From contig JAFYOS010000017.1 of assembly GCA_017560125.1 (NCBI GenBank), positions 62,001 to 126,000 on the forward strand: a stretch of DNA of 64,000 nt. Reading direction: 5' to 3'. The DNA is from Bacteroidaceae bacterium (GTDB taxonomy: Bacteria; Bacteroidota; Bacteroidia; Bacteroidales; Bacteroidaceae). This document shows, in pieces, positions 47,919 through 54,606 of the stretch. A program made the position numbers and the translations under genes. Below the pieces are notes generated by a model, which did not search any database, was not told the DNA's origin, and saw only the letters and a list, made by a program, of their open reading frames with translations. Within the stretch, counting starts at the first letter, position 1; each line of letters begins with the position of its first letter.

Positions 47919-48090
47919 GTGATTGTATTTTTTATGGTTGTTGCAATATACAAAAAGCAGCGGGCGGCAGGTGTGCGGTTTTATGAATACGGTGTATATA
48001 AGTGACTGATTTACAAAATGTATAGTAATATGGCGCTTGCTTGTCGTGTGCGAACGGTGACAGCCTTTTTATTTTGGAAATATGACAGTG

Positions 48091-48122
48091 CTTGTTTTTG
48101 TGCAATACTATTTGTATCTTCG
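48091..48122 (+). promoter_or_regulatory. Promoter of cdd
   Basis: TTG at 48092-48094, 20-base spacer, TATCTTCG at 48115-48122 (variant TAnnTTnG), 26 bases before the start. Confidence 0.68.
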
Positions 48123-48148
48123 CTTTTACAATTTAATATATATCGACG

Positions 48149-48631
48149 ATGAAAGAGGTAGTGCTTGAAACGCGTGTGAAAATATGCGCCTACGAGGAGC
48201 TGTGCGAATCGGACCGTCTGTTGGTCGATGAGGCTCGAAACGCCACCATGAGCAGCTATGCCCCCTATTCGGGCTTTAGTGTGGGGGCGGCGTTGCGCCT
48301 TGTCGGTGGCGAGGTTGTCACGGGTAGTAACCAAGAGAATGTGGCCTATCCTTCGGGCTTGTGTGCCGAGCGCACTGCGCTGTTTTGGGCCGGTGCCAAT
48401 TTCCCCGACAGGGCGGTAGAGGCTATTGCCGTTGCGGCGCGTAATGCCGATGGCGAGCTGTCGCGCCCCATTTCGCCCTGCGGTGCTTGTCGTCAGGTGA
48501 TGCTCGAGGTGGAGAGCCGCTTCGCTGCCCCCATGCGTATAATCCTCTATGGAACAGAAGATTGCTATATTATAGAGGGTGGCGCCGGTGAGCTGTTGCC
48601 TATTTCGTTCGATACCGATTTTTTGAAATGA
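48149..48631 (+). CDS. cdd: Cytidine deaminase
   Basis: 160 residues, the length of homotetrameric cytidine deaminases. Zinc ligands and proton shuttle are in LCAERTALF (Cys, Glu) and PCGACRQ (two Cys). YSGFSVGAALRL is the conserved N-terminal block and NQENVAYPSG precedes the active site. Turns cytidine and deoxycytidine into uridine forms for pyrimidine salvage. Its stop is 4 bases before an ATG that opens the remnant of a phosphatase gene, so the two were originally coupled. Confidence 0.92.
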   Translation: MKEVVLETRVKICAYEELCESDRLLVDEARNATMSSYAPYSGFSVGAALRLVGGEVVTGSNQENVAYPSGLCAERTALFWAGANFPDRAVEAIAVAARNADGELSRPISPCGACRQVMLEVESRFAAPMRIILYGTEDCYIIEGGAGELLPISFDTDFLK

Positions 48632-48635
48632 TGCT

Positions 48636-48674
48636 ATGAAGAAGATTATGTTTGTGTGCCACGGCAACAAATAG
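48636..48674 (+). pseudogene. 5' stub of the tyrosine phosphatase gene, cut by the integrative element
   Basis: A 12-codon frame, MKKIMFVCHGNK then TAG, matches the N-terminus of the low-molecular-weight protein tyrosine phosphatase located 4.7 kb downstream (MFVCHGNICRSP). It begins 4 bases after the cdd stop. The match ends after the TGCCACGG core at 48657-48664, where the element starts. Joining this stub to the sequence after the same core at 53344-53351 gives MKKIMFVCHGNICRSP, a normal phosphatase start. Confidence 0.85.
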
Positions 48675-48741
48675 AAACTTTATATCATCTTTTATTTTAT
48701 TTATATTCAGTTAAATAAAAATAATCATTATCTTTGTCCTT

Positions 48742-48791
48742 GTAAACCAAAAAGCGGTTTTGTACTGTCAAATGTAAACCGTAGTGTAAAC
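48742..48791 (+). repeat. GTAAAC repeats at the left element end (candidate integrase arm sites)
   Basis: GTAAAC at 48742-48747, 48774-48779 and 48786-48791. The last two are spaced GTAAAC-N6-GTAAAC, exactly the spacing seen at the right end (53263-53280). The 48742 copy extends to GTAAACCAAA, also present at the right end. Located between the core site and the integrase start. Confidence 0.65.
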
Positions 48792-48802
48792 TGATTACGA
48801 GA

Positions 48803-50386
48803 ATGAAGCGTTCCTTACCGACGGTATCCGTCATCCTGTATAAGTCCAAGACGTTGGCTAATGGTGAACATCCCATTATGCTGAGGCTATGTTATAACGG
48901 ACAGAGGAAGTATAAGAGTTTCGGTTTGTCCTGCTCAGAGAAGATGTGGAATGAGAAGAAGGAGGAAGTACGCTCTACTCATCCCTATGCTATGAGTATG
49001 AATACTCTTATTCGTGCTGAGGTGGATAAGGCGAATAAGAAGATAATGGAACTCGAACGTGACAAGGCTGATTATTCCGTTACTACTCTTGTGAAGGACT
49101 TGTCTAAGTCTGCTCCGACGACTACATCTCTGTTCGATATGTTCGAGGAACGCATCTCCTATTTCAAGAGTACTCACTCTCATAATACCGCAACGGGGTA
49201 TCGTACCCTGCTTAATACGATAAAGCGTTACACCGAAGATACAGACTACGAGTTGTTTGAGATTGATTCCGAATGGATACGCTGTTTTGAGATATATCTA
49301 CGTGAAAACTACAAGGATACAAGCATTAAGAAGTTCTTTGACTGCTTTAAGGCAGTTATGAATCGTGCTGTCGAGTTGGGGTATATCAAGGCATCTCCAT
49401 TCGATGATTATAGACTGATACGTCCTCTTGATACGAAGACACCTAAACGAGCATTGAGTGTTGATGAGATGATGACATTGATGCGTTATTATATGAAGAC
49501 GTATGGGTTTGGTAATAAGCCGCAACCTAATCTTGAAAAGACCAAGAAACGTTATTGGAATGCAAAGTTTCGCAGACGTGGTCAGAGTAAACTTACTCCC
49601 ATCGATGCAGAGCAGTTGTCGTTGTCTCTTTTTATTTGTTCGTATATGTTTCAGGGGTTAGCTCTTGTGGATTTAGCTAATTTGAAATGGAGAGACATTC
49701 GTGATATAGAGGTTCTTGACAAGGAACAATATGCGAAAGATGTCGGTGAGTTCGGAATTGACTACGCTAATAAGCATAAGGTTGTTAAGGACTATTATGA
49801 GATTAACATTGCACGTTCTAAGACGAATAAGCCAGTACGTATTCTTATTGAGGAAATGACTGTAATTCCGTACTTACTCCCGTTTACTGCGTCTATCAAA
49901 AATATTCCTGATGATGAGGCAGACGATATGTATGTATTTCCTATATATTCAAAAGAGGATGATACTCCTGAAAAGAAGTTTGGGCGTATGACGTATGCCA
50001 ACTACCTCGTTAATGTTAATCTAAAACGTATTGCAGAACGTTTGGGCTTAAAGCCAATAACGTTCTACTCTGCAAGGCATACTTATGCTTCGACATTGTA
50101 TCACGCAAATGTTCCTATGGGATTGATTGCTCAAAATATGGGTAGAAATCCCGCCGAAATTGAAACTTATTTAAAAGATTTTGATAGAGATAGAGTCATT
50201 GATGCTAATCAGCATCTTTATATAACTTCAACCGCCGCCTATAAAAAGGCACGAGAGGAAAGACATGAGAAAACACGAGAGGAACGTGTTGCGGCTTGGG
50301 CTGAGTTTGAAGCTAAGAGAGAGGAACGCCTCAAGGTGTTTCTTGAAAAAATAGAAGATGCCTCGGGTAATTCAACAGAAAAGTAA
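48803..50386 (+). CDS. Tyrosine recombinase/integrase of the element
   Basis: 527 residues. N-terminal arm-binding domain (VSVILYKSKTLANGEHPI, about 1-95), SAM-like core-binding domain (about 110-215) and a catalytic domain (about 230-490). Catalytic residues visible are Lys in RSKTNKP, R425-H426 in SARHTYAS and the nucleophile Tyr456 in ETYLKDF. The first Arg of the usual pentad, expected in the FQGLALVDLANLKW region, is not Arg; the same loss is known for IntDOT-type Bacteroides recombinases. A charged tail (475-527) is predicted to be helical. It is read inward from the left end and should integrate and excise the element at TGCCACGG. Confidence 0.88.
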   Translation: MKRSLPTVSVILYKSKTLANGEHPIMLRLCYNGQRKYKSFGLSCSEKMWNEKKEEVRSTHPYAMSMNTLIRAEVDKANKKIMELERDKADYSVTTLVKDLSKSAPTTTSLFDMFEERISYFKSTHSHNTATGYRTLLNTIKRYTEDTDYELFEIDSEWIRCFEIYLRENYKDTSIKKFFDCFKAVMNRAVELGYIKASPFDDYRLIRPLDTKTPKRALSVDEMMTLMRYYMKTYGFGNKPQPNLEKTKKRYWNAKFRRRGQSKLTPIDAEQLSLSLFICSYMFQGLALVDLANLKWRDIRDIEVLDKEQYAKDVGEFGIDYANKHKVVKDYYEINIARSKTNKPVRILIEEMTVIPYLLPFTASIKNIPDDEADDMYVFPIYSKEDDTPEKKFGRMTYANYLVNVNLKRIAERLGLKPITFYSARHTYASTLYHANVPMGLIAQNMGRNPAEIETYLKDFDRDRVIDANQHLYITSTAAYKKAREERHEKTREERVAAWAEFEAKREERLKVFLEKIEDASGNSTEK

Positions 50387-50422
50387 TATGAAAGACACTG
50401 CCGATTGGTAGTGTCTTTCATA
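50387..50422. terminator. Bidirectional terminator between integrase and serine recombinase
   Basis: TATGAAAGACACT / AGTGTCTTTCATA inverted repeat around GCCGATTGGT, between two convergent stops. Confidence 0.7.
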
Positions 50423-50430
50423 TTTGTCTT

Positions 50431-51057
50431 TTACAATCCAAAATCTTTTTTAACTCTCTGAACTGAGCTCACAGACACCTCGCAGAGTTTTGCTGTATTA
50501 CGTATAGATTGCCCCTTTTTAAGATGTTTTATAACATTGGCGTATTCCTCTGCCTTTTGCTCCTTAGACTTAATAGAGCCAACTTTACGCCCCATTCTGA
50601 CACCCTTTACCTTTGCAAGTTCTCTACCGCTGTTGAGGCGGTATTTTATATTGTCTCGCTCTATCTCAGCAAAAGATGATAGTACCGCAGTAATCATCTT
50701 TGCAATCGGATTCGGCTGTCCATCCTCGTTAAGTGTGCAAAGCGGTAGGTTTTGAATGTAGACATTCACGCCGGCCTTTGTCAGTTCGTCTAGTGTGTTT
50801 ACGACAATCTTGGTAGAACGTCCAAGACGACTGATTCCCGAAACACAGAGGGTATGTACCTTGTTGGTAATACAGTATTCGACACACTGCGTCAGAACGG
50901 GGCGGTTCTCCTTTGCTCCGCTCATCTTCTCCTCGAATACCGACACTAATTCCATCTCGTTTATGGATATGTACTTCTTTAAGTCGGCCACCTGTCTTTC
51001 GGTTGTTTGTCTATCTCCCATTGAGGATACTCGGGCATATATAACTGCTGTATTCAT
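50431..51057 (-). CDS. Serine recombinase (resolvase/invertase family)
   Basis: 208 residues from the ATG at 51057 (MNTAVIYARVSS); the frame is open to 51117 but the promoter lies inside that part. Catalytic domain: nucleophile Ser11 in YARVSS, with conserved SRLGRST and the E-helix IERDNIKYRLNSGREL. The C-terminal part (ANVIKHLKKGQSIRNTAKLCEVSVSSVQRVKK) is the Hin-type helix-turn-helix. It could resolve multimers, invert a segment or regulate itself. A cluster of TATTCAAA-like motifs lies directly upstream (51111-51206). Confidence 0.9.
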   Translation of the reverse strand: MNTAVIYARVSSMGDRQTTERQVADLKKYISINEMELVSVFEEKMSGAKENRPVLTQCVEYCITNKVHTLCVSGISRLGRSTKIVVNTLDELTKAGVNVYIQNLPLCTLNEDGQPNPIAKMITAVLSSFAEIERDNIKYRLNSGRELAKVKGVRMGRKVGSIKSKEQKAEEYANVIKHLKKGQSIRNTAKLCEVSVSSVQRVKKDFGL

Positions 51058-51086
51058 ACTAAAAATGTCTATGATTAACTTCTTTG

Positions 51087-51118
51087 CAAAGATAGTAATT
51101 TTATCTGATGTATTCAAA
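51087..51118 (-). promoter_or_regulatory. Promoter of the serine recombinase gene
   Basis: On the minus strand TTTG at 51118-51115, 20-base spacer, TATCTTTG at 51094-51087. The -33 overlaps the first TATTCAAA motif, which suggests autoregulation. Confidence 0.78.
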
Positions 51119-51206
51119 TATATCTTTGTTTATTTTGAACACATTAACCTATAAAAAAAGTGTATTCAAATTGATTTTTCTGAATACACTTTATTTTTGA
51201 ATACGT
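51111..51206. repeat. Cluster of TATTCAAA/TTTGAATA motifs (candidate recombination or operator site)
   Basis: TATTCAAATA at 51111-51120, TTTTGAAC near 51133, TGTATTCAAA at 51161-51170, TGAATACA at 51181-51188 and TTGAATAC at 51197-51204: five related motifs in both orientations within 96 bases upstream of the serine recombinase. Confidence 0.5.
51158..51192 (-). terminator. Terminator after the PH-like protein gene
   Basis: AAAGTGTATTCA / TGAATACACTTT hairpin with a T-run (TTTTTTT) on the minus strand. It overlaps the motif cluster 51111-51206. Confidence 0.65.
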
Positions 51207-51221
51207 TAGTTAAATTCGAAT

Positions 51222-51593
51222 TTATTTGTTTATGGAAACTCCGTCAACTAGGTATTTACTACCGTTAATTTCAAAATAAGTTCTATGACCTTTTCCTGTA
51301 AGATAAAACTGATACTTGACCTTTGTCTTGGTATTCATAAAGTTACCTGAATGCTTCTTTCCAACACTTGTACCGCCAACACGAATTATGTTATGGTTGA
51401 CATCTTCAGGTATAGGCAAAACTACAGCGTCGGATATATCAATCGTCTTCTTTCCAATAACGAACTTTACAACAAGGTTATTTCCTTTAATGTTATTCTC
51501 TACAGGAACTGTGCCGAGTACAAGTAACACAACTCCAACAATAATTAAAATAGGTGCAATTACTGAAATCAATATAATCTTTTTGGTGTTCAT
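51222..51593 (-). CDS. Small membrane protein with bacterial PH-like domain
   Basis: 123 residues. One N-terminal membrane helix (ILISVIAPILIIVGVVLLVLG). The rest follows the pattern of a small bacterial PH domain (PLPIPEDV, RVGGTSVGKKHSGNF, KYQFYLTGKGHRTYFEI), which typically binds no known ligand with certainty. Element cargo of unknown role, possibly surface or immunity related. It has its own promoter and a hairpin terminator. Confidence 0.6.
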   Translation of the reverse strand: MNTKKIILISVIAPILIIVGVVLLVLGTVPVENNIKGNNLVVKFVIGKKTIDISDAVVLPIPEDVNHNIIRVGGTSVGKKHSGNFMNTKTKVKYQFYLTGKGHRTYFEINGSKYLVDGVSINK

Positions 51594-51960
51594 ATTTAAT
51601 GTATTAGTCTTATGTTATAGATGCTACAACCAAATCATTTGTGACGCATAAATCCCGATTTATGGATGCAAAGATATATAATCCGATTGTAAAAAAACAA
51701 TATCTCAGTATTTTCTCCACCTTGGTAATAGAGTGATTTCGTGAATTGTTTTAGTGAATTTGCCGAATAAGACTATCAATGTCAGCGACTTGATTAACCT
51801 TAAACGTGGTAGTTTCTGTGTCAGAACATAGGCGTAGAACAGTTCGTCGTGAAAATTTTACCTATTACCTTGACTTTTTCTATGTTAAACTATATTTATT
51901 ATATGGACTACATTGAGTATTCCTCATTGATAGCACATAATAACTTACTAATAACTGATA
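51594..51960. other. Intergenic region inside the element
   Basis: 367 bases between divergent genes. It holds the promoter of the PH-like gene (51669-51701) and AT-rich sequence before the NUMOD3-like gene. No open frame or RNA gene is supported. It could contain the replication or transfer origin, but no inverted repeat stands out. Confidence 0.5.
51669..51701 (-). promoter_or_regulatory. Promoter of the PH-like protein gene
   Basis: On the minus strand ATTG at 51701-51698, 21-base spacer, TATCTTTG at 51676-51669. Confidence 0.65.
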
Positions 51961-52182
51961 ATGAATATGATACAACCGAAAAAAAGACTTTACAGAAATG
52001 ACGTGTCGGTAGAGACACGTGAGAAACAGAGCATCGCCCACCAAGGACGTAGGCACAGTGCCGAGACCAAAAGATTAATCAGTCAGCAACTGCAAAAATA
52101 TTGGAGCAGTTTGCCATCAAAACCTACCAATAATAATACAGCCTCAACAATCGGAACAACTTATGGAAAAAAAGGGTATTGA
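51961..52182 (+). CDS. Small NUMOD3-like DNA-binding protein
   Basis: 73 residues, basic. The centre, QGRRHSAETKRLISQQLQKYW, matches the NUMOD3 motif (HSxETxxKIS) found as a DNA-contacting module in homing endonucleases and in small mobile-element proteins. No nuclease domain is present. Its last 20 bases overlap the start of the Rep-like gene in another frame, suggesting translational coupling. A role in origin recognition together with the Rep-like protein is inferred. Confidence 0.6.
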   Translation: MNMIQPKKRLYRNDVSVETREKQSIAHQGRRHSAETKRLISQQLQKYWSSLPSKPTNNNTASTIGTTYGKKGY

Positions 52183-53104
52183 TTGGGCTGTTAGTGTAGA
52201 CAAATTGAAGGTGTGCTTGAATATGCCCGAGCACTTATTTGAATATCTTAAAGAATATCATACACGATATAAAGGCGATGTACGAATACTTGAAGAAGAT
52301 GACTTTTTTCTTGTTTTTACAAAGAAAAAAGATGAAGAGGATGAAACTAACAAGATATCCGCAATACTGAATGTTAGAGATATTGATGGCTATTTTAGAC
52401 TTGGCACCTTTGATTTCTTTAATACCAAACGATATAAGAACCAAGCGTTTTTTACATTTGAAAATAGCGCCTTATACCGCATTTATTCGCTTAATTACGA
52501 TGGAACGCCTAATAATTGTATTTGCTGTTTATTATATGTTATGGAGTATTATGGTATTCGTTTTAACAACTCAACAGAAACTGAAATTGCATTTGATTGC
52601 ACTTATGACTTCGTCAAGAAAGTAACTAATGCCATCAAGAATGTAGATAAGTATCAATTGTATATAAACGGAAAACTTGTTGAAGAAGATGAAACCCTAG
52701 ATGGCTATGGAGAATACTACACCCGTAAACGAATTAAACTAAACAAGACTCCAACACTATATTTTCATCATAAAAAGACTACGGACATGCAAATGAAGAT
52801 TTATGACAAAGCAAAGGAACTCCAAGAAGAAAGTCTGCATAAGTCCAAATATATACACGAATGGTTGAATTGGGATGACACAAGCAAAATATTTCGGATT
52901 GAAGTCACATGGCACAACAATAATGTAAGAGAAGCAATGAAAGAAATCTGCAAGGAGAGAGAAGAGTGGAGTGAACATGAAAACTTTCTAAACTTGATTG
53001 GTTTAAGGGATTTTTTAATCGCCATGCTTATTGATGGAACTAGGCGACTAATATATTTCAAAGATATAAAGACACAAAAAGAAGTAAGTATATTCGAGCT
53101 TTGA
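52163..53104 (+). CDS. Rep_trans/MOBT-like replication initiator or relaxase
   Basis: 313 residues. The order of motifs is that of Rep_trans initiators: an N-terminal DWAVSVDKLKV segment, ETEIAFDCTYDF (acidic metal-binding strand), PTLYFHHKKTTDMQMKIYDKAKEL with the candidate nucleophile Tyr in KIYDKAKE, and FRIEVTWHNNN. These proteins start rolling-circle replication, and their MOBT relatives nick oriT of integrative elements. Identity is by motif arrangement only. Inverted repeats (53104-53124 and 53176-53190) follow the gene and could be origin structures. Confidence 0.62.
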   Translation: MEKKGIDWAVSVDKLKVCLNMPEHLFEYLKEYHTRYKGDVRILEEDDFFLVFTKKKDEEDETNKISAILNVRDIDGYFRLGTFDFFNTKRYKNQAFFTFENSALYRIYSLNYDGTPNNCICCLLYVMEYYGIRFNNSTETEIAFDCTYDFVKKVTNAIKNVDKYQLYINGKLVEEDETLDGYGEYYTRKRIKLNKTPTLYFHHKKTTDMQMKIYDKAKELQEESLHKSKYIHEWLNWDDTSKIFRIEVTWHNNNVREAMKEICKEREEWSEHENFLNLIGLRDFLIAMLIDGTRRLIYFKDIKTQKEVSIFEL

Positions 53105-53190
53105 GGTATATAACCCATATACCTAGGCGAACTATTGTGAGCTAAAAAAGAGGGGGTAGCCAATACCGTTTGGCGAGGGGTGCAACCCCT
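53104..53190 (+). other. Inverted repeats downstream of the Rep-like gene (candidate origin)
   Basis: AGGTATAT-AACCC-ATATACCT at 53104-53124 and AGGGGT-GCA-ACCCCT at 53176-53190. Neither is followed by a T-run, so they are better candidates for origin or oriT hairpins than for terminators. A G-run (AGAGGGGGTAG) lies between them. Confidence 0.45.
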
Positions 53191-53222
53191 TGAAATCGGC
53201 ATGCAAATATAAAAACTTTAAT

Positions 53223-53230
53223 TATCTTTG
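53223..53230 (+). promoter_or_regulatory. -7 box supplied by the element to the phosphatase gene
   Basis: TATCTTTG, 60 bases before the new phosphatase start. No good -33 is present. It lies inside the element, so it would replace read-through from cdd. Confidence 0.5.
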
Positions 53231-53262
53231 CGGGAGTATATAAATAGGTATGAAAAGCATTT

Positions 53263-53284
53263 GTAAACTACCACGTAAACCAAA
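53263..53284 (+). repeat. GTAAAC-N6-GTAAAC at the right element end
   Basis: GTAAAC at 53263-53268 and 53275-53280, the same spacing as the pair at 48774-48791; the second extends to GTAAACCAAA like the 48742 copy. Orientation is the same at both ends. Confidence 0.65.
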
Positions 53285-53289
53285 CAAGA

Positions 53290-53802
53290 ATGGAAAATCA
53301 TAATGAATTGAATAGCAATATTAAACATAAAGTAATGTTCGTCTGCCACGGTAATATATGCCGTTCGCCTATGGCCGAGTTCGTGTTCAAAAGTATGGTC
53401 GATAAATATGGTGCGGCCGATGATTTTTATATCTGTTCGGCTGCTACCAGCAGCGAGGAGATTGGCAACCCTGTCTATCCCCCTGCACTCTATGAGCTTG
53501 GACGCAACGGCATTGCGGTGGACAAGGACAAGCGTGCCATGCGCGTTACCCGAGACGATTATCAGGAGTATGACATGATAATAGTGATGGAGCAATATAA
53601 TATAAGGAATCTTAGTGGCGTGGCCGGCTTCGACCCGCTGAACAAAATATGGAAACTACTCGATTTTGTAAATCCCGATGCGGTGGAGCAGTGCGCTGGC
53701 GACGATATATCCGATCCGTGGTATCACGGTAATTTTTCCAAGACCTATAAAGAGATTGCAAGTGGCTGTGCCGGCTTGCTTAAATATTTGGGCTACAGAT
53801 AA
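53290..53802 (+). CDS. Low-molecular-weight protein tyrosine phosphatase, with element-derived N-terminus
   Basis: 170 residues. Active-site loop CHGNICRS gives C19 and R25 (CX5R), and DPWYHGNF towards the C-terminus holds the general-acid Asp. LMW phosphatases remove phosphate from tyrosine, for example on capsule-regulating kinases, in the cytoplasm. The first 15 residues (MENHNELNSNIKHKV) have no counterpart in the family and are encoded by the integrative element; the family part begins at Met16. The original start survives as a stub at 48636. The protein should still fold and work, but it is no longer coupled to cdd. Confidence 0.9.
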   Translation: MENHNELNSNIKHKVMFVCHGNICRSPMAEFVFKSMVDKYGAADDFYICSAATSSEEIGNPVYPPALYELGRNGIAVDKDKRAMRVTRDDYQEYDMIIVMEQYNIRNLSGVAGFDPLNKIWKLLDFVNPDAVEQCAGDDISDPWYHGNFSKTYKEIASGCAGLLKYLGYR

Positions 53803-53824
53803 CTAATGCGGGTGGCCGAAAAAC

Positions 53825-53860
53825 AACAGAGCGTTTCAAGATGTCTTGAAACGCTCTGTT
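53825..53860 (-). terminator. Terminator downstream of tRNA-Ala
   Basis: AACAGAGCGTTTCAAGA and its complement with a 2-base loop; on the minus strand it is followed by GTTTTT. It also lies after the phosphatase stop on the plus strand. Confidence 0.72.
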
Positions 53861-53864
53861 GTTG

Positions 53865-53938
53865 TGGAGCATACGAGAGTCGAACTCGTCACCTTTTGAC
53901 TGCCAGTCAAACGCTCTAGCCAGATGAGCTAATGCCCC
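53865..53938 (-). tRNA. tRNA-Ala(GGC)
   Basis: 74 bases on the minus strand. Acceptor stem GGGGCAT / ATGCTCC with one G-U pair, D-arm GCTCATCTGGCTAGAGC, anticodon stem TTGA / TCAA with loop CTGGCAG (anticodon GGC) and T-loop GTTCGACTC. CCA is not encoded. A TATCTTCG (53988-53981 on the minus strand) is the likely -7 box. Confidence 0.92.
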
Positions 53939-54036
53939 TTGTTCTCTTGTGTGATTGTAACCCGAACGGTTAAATCGTTGCGAAGATAGTATATATTTTT
54001 TGTTTTTTCATTACCTTAGCGGAGATTTTTTAAGGT

Positions 54037-54606
54037 ATGGATAATTCGCAGCTTGAAGAGAGGGTGATAATGGGTATCGATCCGGGTACAAATATCATGG
54101 GGTATGCCTTCATTGGCGTGCGCGGTAATCGCGCGCGTCTCATTGCTATGGGCATTATCGACCTTCGCAAATTTGGCGATTCATACCTGAAACTGGGCGA
54201 GATTTTTTCGCGCGTACAGGGGCTCATAAAATCGTTCCTTCCCGATGAATTGGCCATTGAGGCGCCCTTCTTTGGCAAGAATGTGCAGAGCATGCTCAAG
54301 CTGGGGCGTGCACAGGGGGTGGCGATAGCTGCCGCCATCAGTCGCGATGTGCCCATTCACGAGTATGCTCCGCTGAAGATAAAAATGGCTATCACCGGAA
54401 ACGGTGGCGCTTCTAAGGAACAGGTGGCTGATATGTTGCGCCGCATGCTCAATATAGATGAGAAGGAGATGCCGCGTTTTATGGATGCCACCGATGCGCT
54501 CGGTGCCGCCTATTGCCATTTTTTGCAAAAGGGCTTGCCGGTTGTGAAGGCGGGCTATTCGAGTTGGAAGGATTTTGTGGCCAAGAACCCCGACAAGGTA
54601 AAATAG
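54037..54606 (+). CDS. ruvC: Holliday junction resolvase RuvC
   Basis: 189 residues. Acidic catalytic residues of the RNase H-like fold: Asp in MGIDPGTN, Glu in [12 protein letters not shown], and the Asp pair in [29 protein letters not shown] is the conserved DNA-binding segment. It cuts four-way junctions after RuvAB branch migration. The RuvA and RuvB genes are not adjacent. The start is 46 bases after a region with a divergent tRNA-Ala promoter. Confidence 0.93.

Follow-up and report, generated by a model that had tools for sequence, protein, structure and literature searches.

A small integrative, probably mobilizable element with a candidate Rep_trans/MOBT-like nicking protein, inserted in the active-site loop codons of a phosphatase gene of a Bacteroidaceae bacterium

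The DNA analysed here (the window) is a stretch of 64,000 nt from Bacteroidaceae bacterium GCA_017560125.1 (contig JAFYOS010000017.1, positions 62,001 to 126,000, forward strand). It contains an element that is inserted in the gene for a low-molecular-weight protein tyrosine phosphatase (LMW-PTP) and encodes five proteins, namely a tyrosine integrase, a small serine recombinase, a bPH_5-like membrane protein, a NUMOD3-like protein and a Rep-like protein. An initial annotation had placed an element of about 4.69 kb at 48657..53351, and this is borne out, as the two cores lie 4,687 bp apart (the element length) within one LMW-PTP gene; the integrase, the serine recombinase, the NUMOD3-like protein and the Rep-like protein that it listed are present as described, the NUMOD3-like call being weak. 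Both the target, the LMW-PTP active-site loop, and the re-supplied 5' end of the target gene were missing from that annotation. The two ends and three of the genes are as follows (positions in the window).

48636-48674, + strand: left stub of the host LMW-PTP gene (attL, the left attachment site), MKKIMFVCHGNK followed by a stop, ending in element DNA
48657-48664, + strand: left core repeat TGCCACGG
48742, 48774 and 48786 (region 48742-48791), + strand: left putative arm-type sites GTAAAC
48803-50386, + strand: tyrosine integrase, 527 amino acids (PF17293, PF13102), with relatives of 59-91% identity at the same site
51961-52182, + strand: NUMOD3-like mini-protein, 73 amino acids, a weak call at 18.7 bits (cutoff 20.4)
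52163-53104, + strand: Rep_trans/MOBT-like protein (the Rep-like protein), 313 amino acids
53220-53289, + strand: right end with promoter-like TATCTTTG and putative arm-type sites GTAAAC at 53263 and 53275
53290-53343, + strand: start codon and N-terminal extension (MENHNELNSNIKHKVMFV), both encoded by the element, as far as the core
53344-53351, + strand: right core repeat TGCCACGG
53290-53802, + strand: restored LMW-PTP, 170 amino acids, CHGNICRS loop intact (PF01451, E 2.1e-27)

The bare 8-mer TGCCACGG occurs four times on the forward and twice on the reverse strand of the window, and with six occurrences on the two strands the repeat by itself proves nothing, so that we rejected it as stand-alone evidence for an element. 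It gains significance because both copies encode the same LMW-PTP codons, those for C-H-G in the active-site loop, the catalytic loop of these enzymes, and because the flanks, when joined at the core, read as an uninterrupted LMW-PTP that starts MKKIMFVCHGNICRSPMAEF. As integrated, the left host frame reads MKKIMFVCHGN, then K and a stop within the element, while the right frame opens inside the element as MENHNELNSNIKHKVMFVCHGN and runs on into ICRSPMAEF and the remaining phosphatase. The AT-rich composition, also part of the original description, is confirmed: the GC content of the element is 36.7%, compared to 50.4% in the 10 kb to its left and 48.8% in the 10 kb to its right, and the lowest-GC segment among 594 of element size (100-bp steps) starts at 48601.

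Of 44 genomes of the same genus (the window's own counted), 43 have an LMW-PTP match, and the loci of 30 of these, each about 3.5 kb or less, were compared. None of the five element proteins is encoded at any of the 29 loci other than that of the window. A cytidine deaminase gene lies upstream of LMW-PTP, as in the window, in 27 of the 29, separated by a gap which we roughly estimate to be within 46 bp in 26 loci and about 245 bp in one (L029); at the LMW-PTP locus of the remaining two (L022 and L023) a deaminase match is absent. The LMW-PTP starts displayed for these empty sites are MKKIMFVCHGN or a close variant.

Relatives of the integrase were identified at three loci of a genome-contig collection and, among 201 genomes of the family searched at E 1e-60, in G083; among 393 genomes of the order searched at E 1e-70 there was no match beyond the window's own genome. 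All five loci with this integrase (at least 59% identity, one of them a fragment) are at LMW-PTP. A stub of this gene is found at 4 of 4 readable left ends: that of the window, and those in an Alistipes metagenome-assembled genome (L006, integrase 91%), in Bacteroidales SIG152 (L007, 88%) and in G083 (L005, 59%), the latter three each starting in a stub that ends ...CLGNK followed by a stop. The readable right ends (window, L007 and L008) all restore LMW-PTP, and L007 and L008 have equivalents of the N-terminal extension. Comparison of these loci shows that the target of this integrase lineage is the set of codons for the LMW-PTP active-site loop, and that insertion leaves behind, at attL, a dead stub with the host's own start. 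It also shows that, at the right attachment site (attR), the start codon and a new in-frame N-terminus come from the element, with a promoter-like box ahead, so that LMW-PTP stays readable. Site-specific integration at fixed boundaries, as had been postulated, is strongly supported by the empty sites in the genus together with related insertions at the same codons in other hosts. The pairing of integrase and Rep-like protein at another locus, which had been put forward as a check, is found in L007 (88% and 54%), where a NUMOD3-like gene (73%) and a restored LMW-PTP accompany it.

The insertion in L008 is a decayed copy, with an integrase fragment of 85 residues and no Rep-like match. Within L008:7990-9240 the element-derived promoter-like box and LMW-PTP N-terminus persist, most of the element having been lost, which suggests that a host can retain an element-derived start. 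One could argue that the element of the window is likewise a decayed, immobile remnant of something larger, as it is present in a single copy in its own genome (by searches with the Rep-like protein and the integrase) and its relatives vary in content, L007 matching neither the serine recombinase nor the bPH gene. We think this highly improbable, since the frames of the integrase, the recombinase, the NUMOD3-like and the Rep-like protein are all open, the two ends are in place together with the arm sites, and related integrases occur at the same site in other hosts; decay is illustrated by L008.

The five GTAAAC motifs in the arms share one orientation, and further copies elsewhere in the element are found twice on each strand. 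The left spacing of 32 and 12 is kept in 4 of 4 cases (window, L005, L006 and L007), and the right pair (spacing 12) as well as the 69 bp that separate the last right arm and the core in 3 of 3 (window, L007 and L008), all three also having TATCTTTG before the right arms. We take this box to resemble the Bacteroidetes -7 box. The informative comparison is that with L005 (59% integrase identity), as L006, L007 and L008 are close to the element of the window. Among 301 genomes of the family, the arm pattern was found in three, the window's own, G083 and G1064. In the last (G1064:C12:102318-123360), two copies of the pattern bound an element of about 21 kb that by eye is unrelated and lies at a tRNA-like site, with a distant integrase of 27% identity; the arm motif is therefore not unique to the LMW-PTP element family and belongs to a wider integrase group.

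Two domains of the integrase, Arm-DNA-bind_5 and Phage_int_SAM_5, score above cutoff, while Phage_integrase reaches 21.7 bits and stays below its cutoff of 27.1. The element is predicted to encode its own recombinase for integration and excision, as expected of an integrative and mobilizable element (IME). When the protein (48803-50386) is viewed by eye against the motifs of tyrosine recombinases, a glutamine seems to occupy the usual position of the first catalytic arginine (FQGLALVDL).

For the Rep-like protein, the residues D13, D145, Y214, K216, E219 and E247 are among those invariant in 7 of 7 aligned family members. In the MOBT relaxase RelSt3, nicking requires D72, D177, Y252, K254 and E280, with E257 also important, according to the cited parts of its description (PMC6499999). 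The Rep-like family has invariant counterparts of these six nicking-relevant residues, with identical spacing in Y-x-K-x-x-E, so that the residues which characterise Rep_trans/MOBT proteins, three acidic ones and, in motif III, the catalytic Tyr with Lys and Glu, are all present. Profile comparison by hhalign points in the same direction, with a probability of 78.9 (P 1.6e-5) against RepC of pT181 and of 55.7 (P 1.1e-4) against five plasmid Rep_trans proteins, compared to 0.1 and 0.2 (P 0.44 and 0.28) in two control comparisons. The alignment places motifs I, III and IV in register, while motif N' (D13) was placed by eye. The tyrosine of RepC that is aligned with Y214 computes to position 191 if RepC has 314 amino acids; this length, and the role of Tyr191, are our assumptions. 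Two relatives match Rep_trans in Pfam below cutoff, L007 with E 5.5e-4 and L003 with E 2.6e-3, and the Rep-like proteins of L014, L015, L016 and L017 gave no such match up to E 0.1. We read the Rep-like protein as a probable remote relative of Rep_trans/MOBT. It has no Pfam match to an N-terminal helix-turn-helix (HTH), and so is not MOBT in the strict sense (HTH plus PF02486, on integrative and conjugative elements, ICEs), but the MOBT paper, in the parts cited, also counts NicK-type proteins without HTH (PMC6499999).

The remaining features lie between the integrase and the NUMOD3-like gene.

50431-51057, - strand: small serine recombinase (resolvase/invertase type), 208 amino acids (PF00239, E 1.4e-32), with relatives of 32-93% identity beside a Rep-like gene or a related integrase
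51110-51204, unstranded: putative res-like region with five GTATTCAAA half-sites (up to 1 mismatch); 51154-51204 is identical in L007 at 50 of 51 positions
51222-51593, - strand: predicted membrane protein, 123 amino acids, with weak bPH_5 similarity (below cutoff)
51767-51822, unstranded: 56-bp block, identical in L007; candidate origin of transfer (oriT), double-strand origin (dso) or leader

PF00239 is matched above cutoff by the serine recombinase, and its C-terminal HTH_7 reaches 21.3 bits, just under the cutoff of 23.8, an architecture which suggests a small serine resolvase. A role as second integrase was rejected in view of the small size, the adjoining half-sites and a relative on a plasmid, and a resolvase is more likely. 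The half-sites are inverted in the block 51154-51204, and all five lie within 230 bp upstream of the recombinase gene; elsewhere, two were found upstream of the recombinase in L018 and one in L016. We infer a res-like region in the lineage of the window only. The block 51154-51204 is near-unchanged at about 10061-10111 of L007, although that locus has no serine recombinase match.

No match to type IV secretion system (T4SS) families or to MobP/MobV was obtained for the five element proteins in Pfam up to E 1, in line with the earlier statement that a T4SS and the usual Mob relaxases are lacking, and none of the five is a coupling protein by Pfam. A search of 48000-54100 at the Rfam gathering threshold returned nothing besides tRNA.

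We favour a small integrative, probably mobilizable element that would be nicked by an enzyme of the Rep_trans/MOBT type, and assign this reading, which is derived from sequence comparison, a probability of roughly two thirds. Recombination of the two cores by the integrase, with the conserved GTAAAC motifs as its arm sites, would release the element as a circle. The Rep_trans/MOBT-type protein may then nick this circle, perhaps with the NUMOD3-like protein as a DNA-binding partner, and nicking would drive rolling-circle replication and probably also single-strand transfer via the conjugation machinery of a resident element. Multimers could be resolved by the small serine recombinase at the res-like sites ahead of its own gene, and LMW-PTP would be expressed from the element. 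A possible helper in the window's genome is TraG (PF12696) at L082 (G000:C26:128000-147500), whose neighbours look Bacteroidetes-Tra-like by eye; no PF03432 relaxase was detected in this genome at E 0.001.

Several results weigh against a mobilizable element of this kind. Pfam finds no Rep_trans match in the Rep-like protein of the window, PF02486 had no match at E 0.001 anywhere in the genome to which the window belongs, and the best PF02486 score among six Rep-like relatives scanned was 20.0 bits, compared to a cutoff of 29.6. The hhalign probability falls, from 78.9 to 55.7, when five Rep_trans sequences are used in place of one. When solved structures were searched, either with the protein or with the profile of its family, the matches were all unrelated and insignificant and no Rep_trans entry was among them (the fold, known from the structure of pSTK1 Rep, has a 2 x 5-stranded sheet at its centre), and an AlphaFold model built from two sequences (window and L007) had a mean pLDDT (predicted local distance difference test) score of 36.3 and was unusable. 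The Rep_trans/MOBT-like assignment of the initial annotation draws support from the catalytic residues and the profile comparison, but falls short of the Pfam cutoff. With respect to the DNA sites, no oriT or nick site was identified, and the candidate 56-bp block is kept only in the close relative L007, is unrecognisable in L009, L014 and L015, and folds as a single strand no better than shuffled sequences (z 0.03 and -1.44). No GTATTCAAA half-sites were found upstream of the recombinase in L003, L009 and L014, a serine recombinase match is missing in L007, and no excisionase gene was recognised in the element. Shared arm spacing is to be expected, as the ends compared belong mostly to close relatives (integrases 88-91%).

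A further point of this kind is that Phage_CRI, a family of filamentous-phage initiators, is weakly matched by 2 of 7 members of the Rep-like family (best E 0.006, for a relative). Together with a weak match to the phage replication protein phrog_702 (E 0.0084), the small size, the integrase at one end and the restored target gene, this would fit a phage satellite or relic that is moved by transduction. We give this origin very little chance, as none of the five element proteins matches capsid or packaging families. In addition, the Rep-like protein has no relative in INPHARED (where the integrase was not searched), neither it nor the integrase has relatives in IMG/VR by a pattern-based search, and none of the 20 stretches with the arm pattern in IMG/VR encodes any of the proteins searched for.

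The element might also be an integrative plasmid, its Rep-like protein serving only as rolling-circle initiator of the excised circle, which would spread without conjugative mobilization. Rep_trans proteins of Firmicutes plasmids are initiators (PMC5704250, in the part cited), the missing N-terminal HTH match sets the Rep-like protein apart from typical MOBT relaxases as described in the relevant sections of PMC6499999, and a resolvase with res-like sites fits a replicating circle. The plasmid pRGF00029, from an uncultured bacterium, presumably of rat-gut origin, bears on this question. It resembles the element in having a relative of the Rep-like protein (29%) and a related serine recombinase (40%), and differs in being free, with a Rep_3 initiator (PF01051, E 3.3e-17), no integrase seen among its open reading frames and no NUMOD3-like match. 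As it has a Rep_3 initiator, with which the Rep-like relative coexists, the latter need not be the initiator there. For this reason we regard the plasmid alternative as unlikely, although the two readings overlap, since MobT of Tn916 and ICEBs1 both acts in transfer and replicates the excised circle, according to the cited sections of PMC5704250.

A mobilizable element of this type would differ from those known in Bacteroides, as had been suggested, and this agrees with a 2017 review (PMC5704250), in whose cited sections the few known Bacteroidetes IMEs all have canonical relaxases, either MobP (Tn4399, Tn4555, NBU1 and NBU2) or MobV (Tn5520), and Tn5520, Tn4399 and Tn4555 are listed as having low specificity. 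The element shares with these five that it is integrated, of mobilizable type, without T4SS and with its own predicted DNA-nicking protein, but this protein is Rep_trans-like, the site is LMW-PTP, and no MobP or MobV match was obtained up to E 1. According to the same sections of the review, IMEs of MobT type are known from streptococci, and targets at 5' ends are rarer than those at 3' ends. With the MOBT elements of Firmicutes (ICESt3, ICEBs1, Tn916 and streptococcal IMEs), the element has in common the acidic residues, Y-x-K-x-x-E and the later Glu in the same order; it differs from them in having no N-terminal HTH match, a separate NUMOD3-like protein, a score below the PF02486 cutoff and no coupling protein among its five proteins, and in belonging to another phylum. 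MOBT in ICEs was reported from Firmicutes only in the cited part of a 2019 gut survey (PMC6907783), which assigns no phyla to its IMEs with MOBT, and is tied to Firmicutes elements in that of a 2024 review (PMC11389934), while the table rows cited from PMC11104534 carry MOBT labels on elements that are proteobacterial, actinobacterial or unassigned, their single Bacteroidetes element being MOBP1. As for Rep_trans plasmids of the pT181 type, the alignment keeps motifs I, III and IV in register, but the similarity is local and remote, and here the DNA is chromosomally integrated and has its own integrase.

Insertion at a 5' end with preservation of the gene is reminiscent of streptococcal ICEs in the 5' ends of ftsK, rbgA and ebfC, where a new promoter is provided in some cases (PMC4701971, in the sections cited). 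Those sections of the 2016 survey describe insertions that leave the N-terminus unchanged, whereas here it is replaced and extended. The element departs from the cited portions of the published descriptions in its relaxase type and in N-terminus replacement. Among the titles and abstract openings returned by searches of open-licence PMC literature, none concerned insertion in LMW-PTP or a NUMOD3 partner of a relaxase, which does not establish absence from print. The replacement of the 5' end is a clean, testable case in which a host phosphatase comes under the upstream sequence of an element and has its N-terminus altered.

Relatives of the Rep-like protein were found in 2 of 201 genomes of the family, 5 of 393 of the order and 3 of 395 of the phylum (the window's own included in each count), and further in L007 and in one of 72,556 plasmid records (pRGF00029), so that the module is rare in the sampled genomes. 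Nine Rep-like loci were counted (window, L007, L003, L009, L014, L015, L016, L017 and L055), while L019, with a borderline Rep_trans match, was left out. A NUMOD3-like gene accompanies the Rep-like gene in seven of the nine (not L003 and L055), and a small serine recombinase in five (not L007, L015, L017 and L055). The NUMOD3-like frame of the window (51961-52182) overlaps the start of the Rep-like gene (52163), and in L016 the two genes are about 2 kb apart; L015 starts at a contig end just upstream of the pair. Tyrosine integrases in L009, L014 and L017 were labelled by eye. In L016:1999-6999, a large serine integrase takes the place of the tyrosine integrase beside the Rep-like, small serine recombinase and NUMOD3-like genes.

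Bacteroidota may hold a family of mobilization/replication modules that is as yet undescribed, composed of a Rep_trans-like nicking protein without HTH, a NUMOD3-like DNA-binding partner and often a small resolvase, which would be swapped among integrases of the tyrosine and the large serine type and a free plasmid, and in one lineage of which the attachment-site arm doubles as promoter, start codon and N-terminal leader of LMW-PTP; we consider the odds for this wider proposal to be even. Should the Rep-like protein mobilize DNA, a class of mobile elements in Bacteroidota would escape surveys for relaxases that apply the standard cutoff of PF02486. Restriction-modification-like genes (by eye) adjoin the Rep-like gene in L015:944-14000 and L055:2615-10329, suggesting that some relatives of the module lie in defence islands. 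In L002/L009, the Rep-like gene of a relative is split across two overlapping frames.

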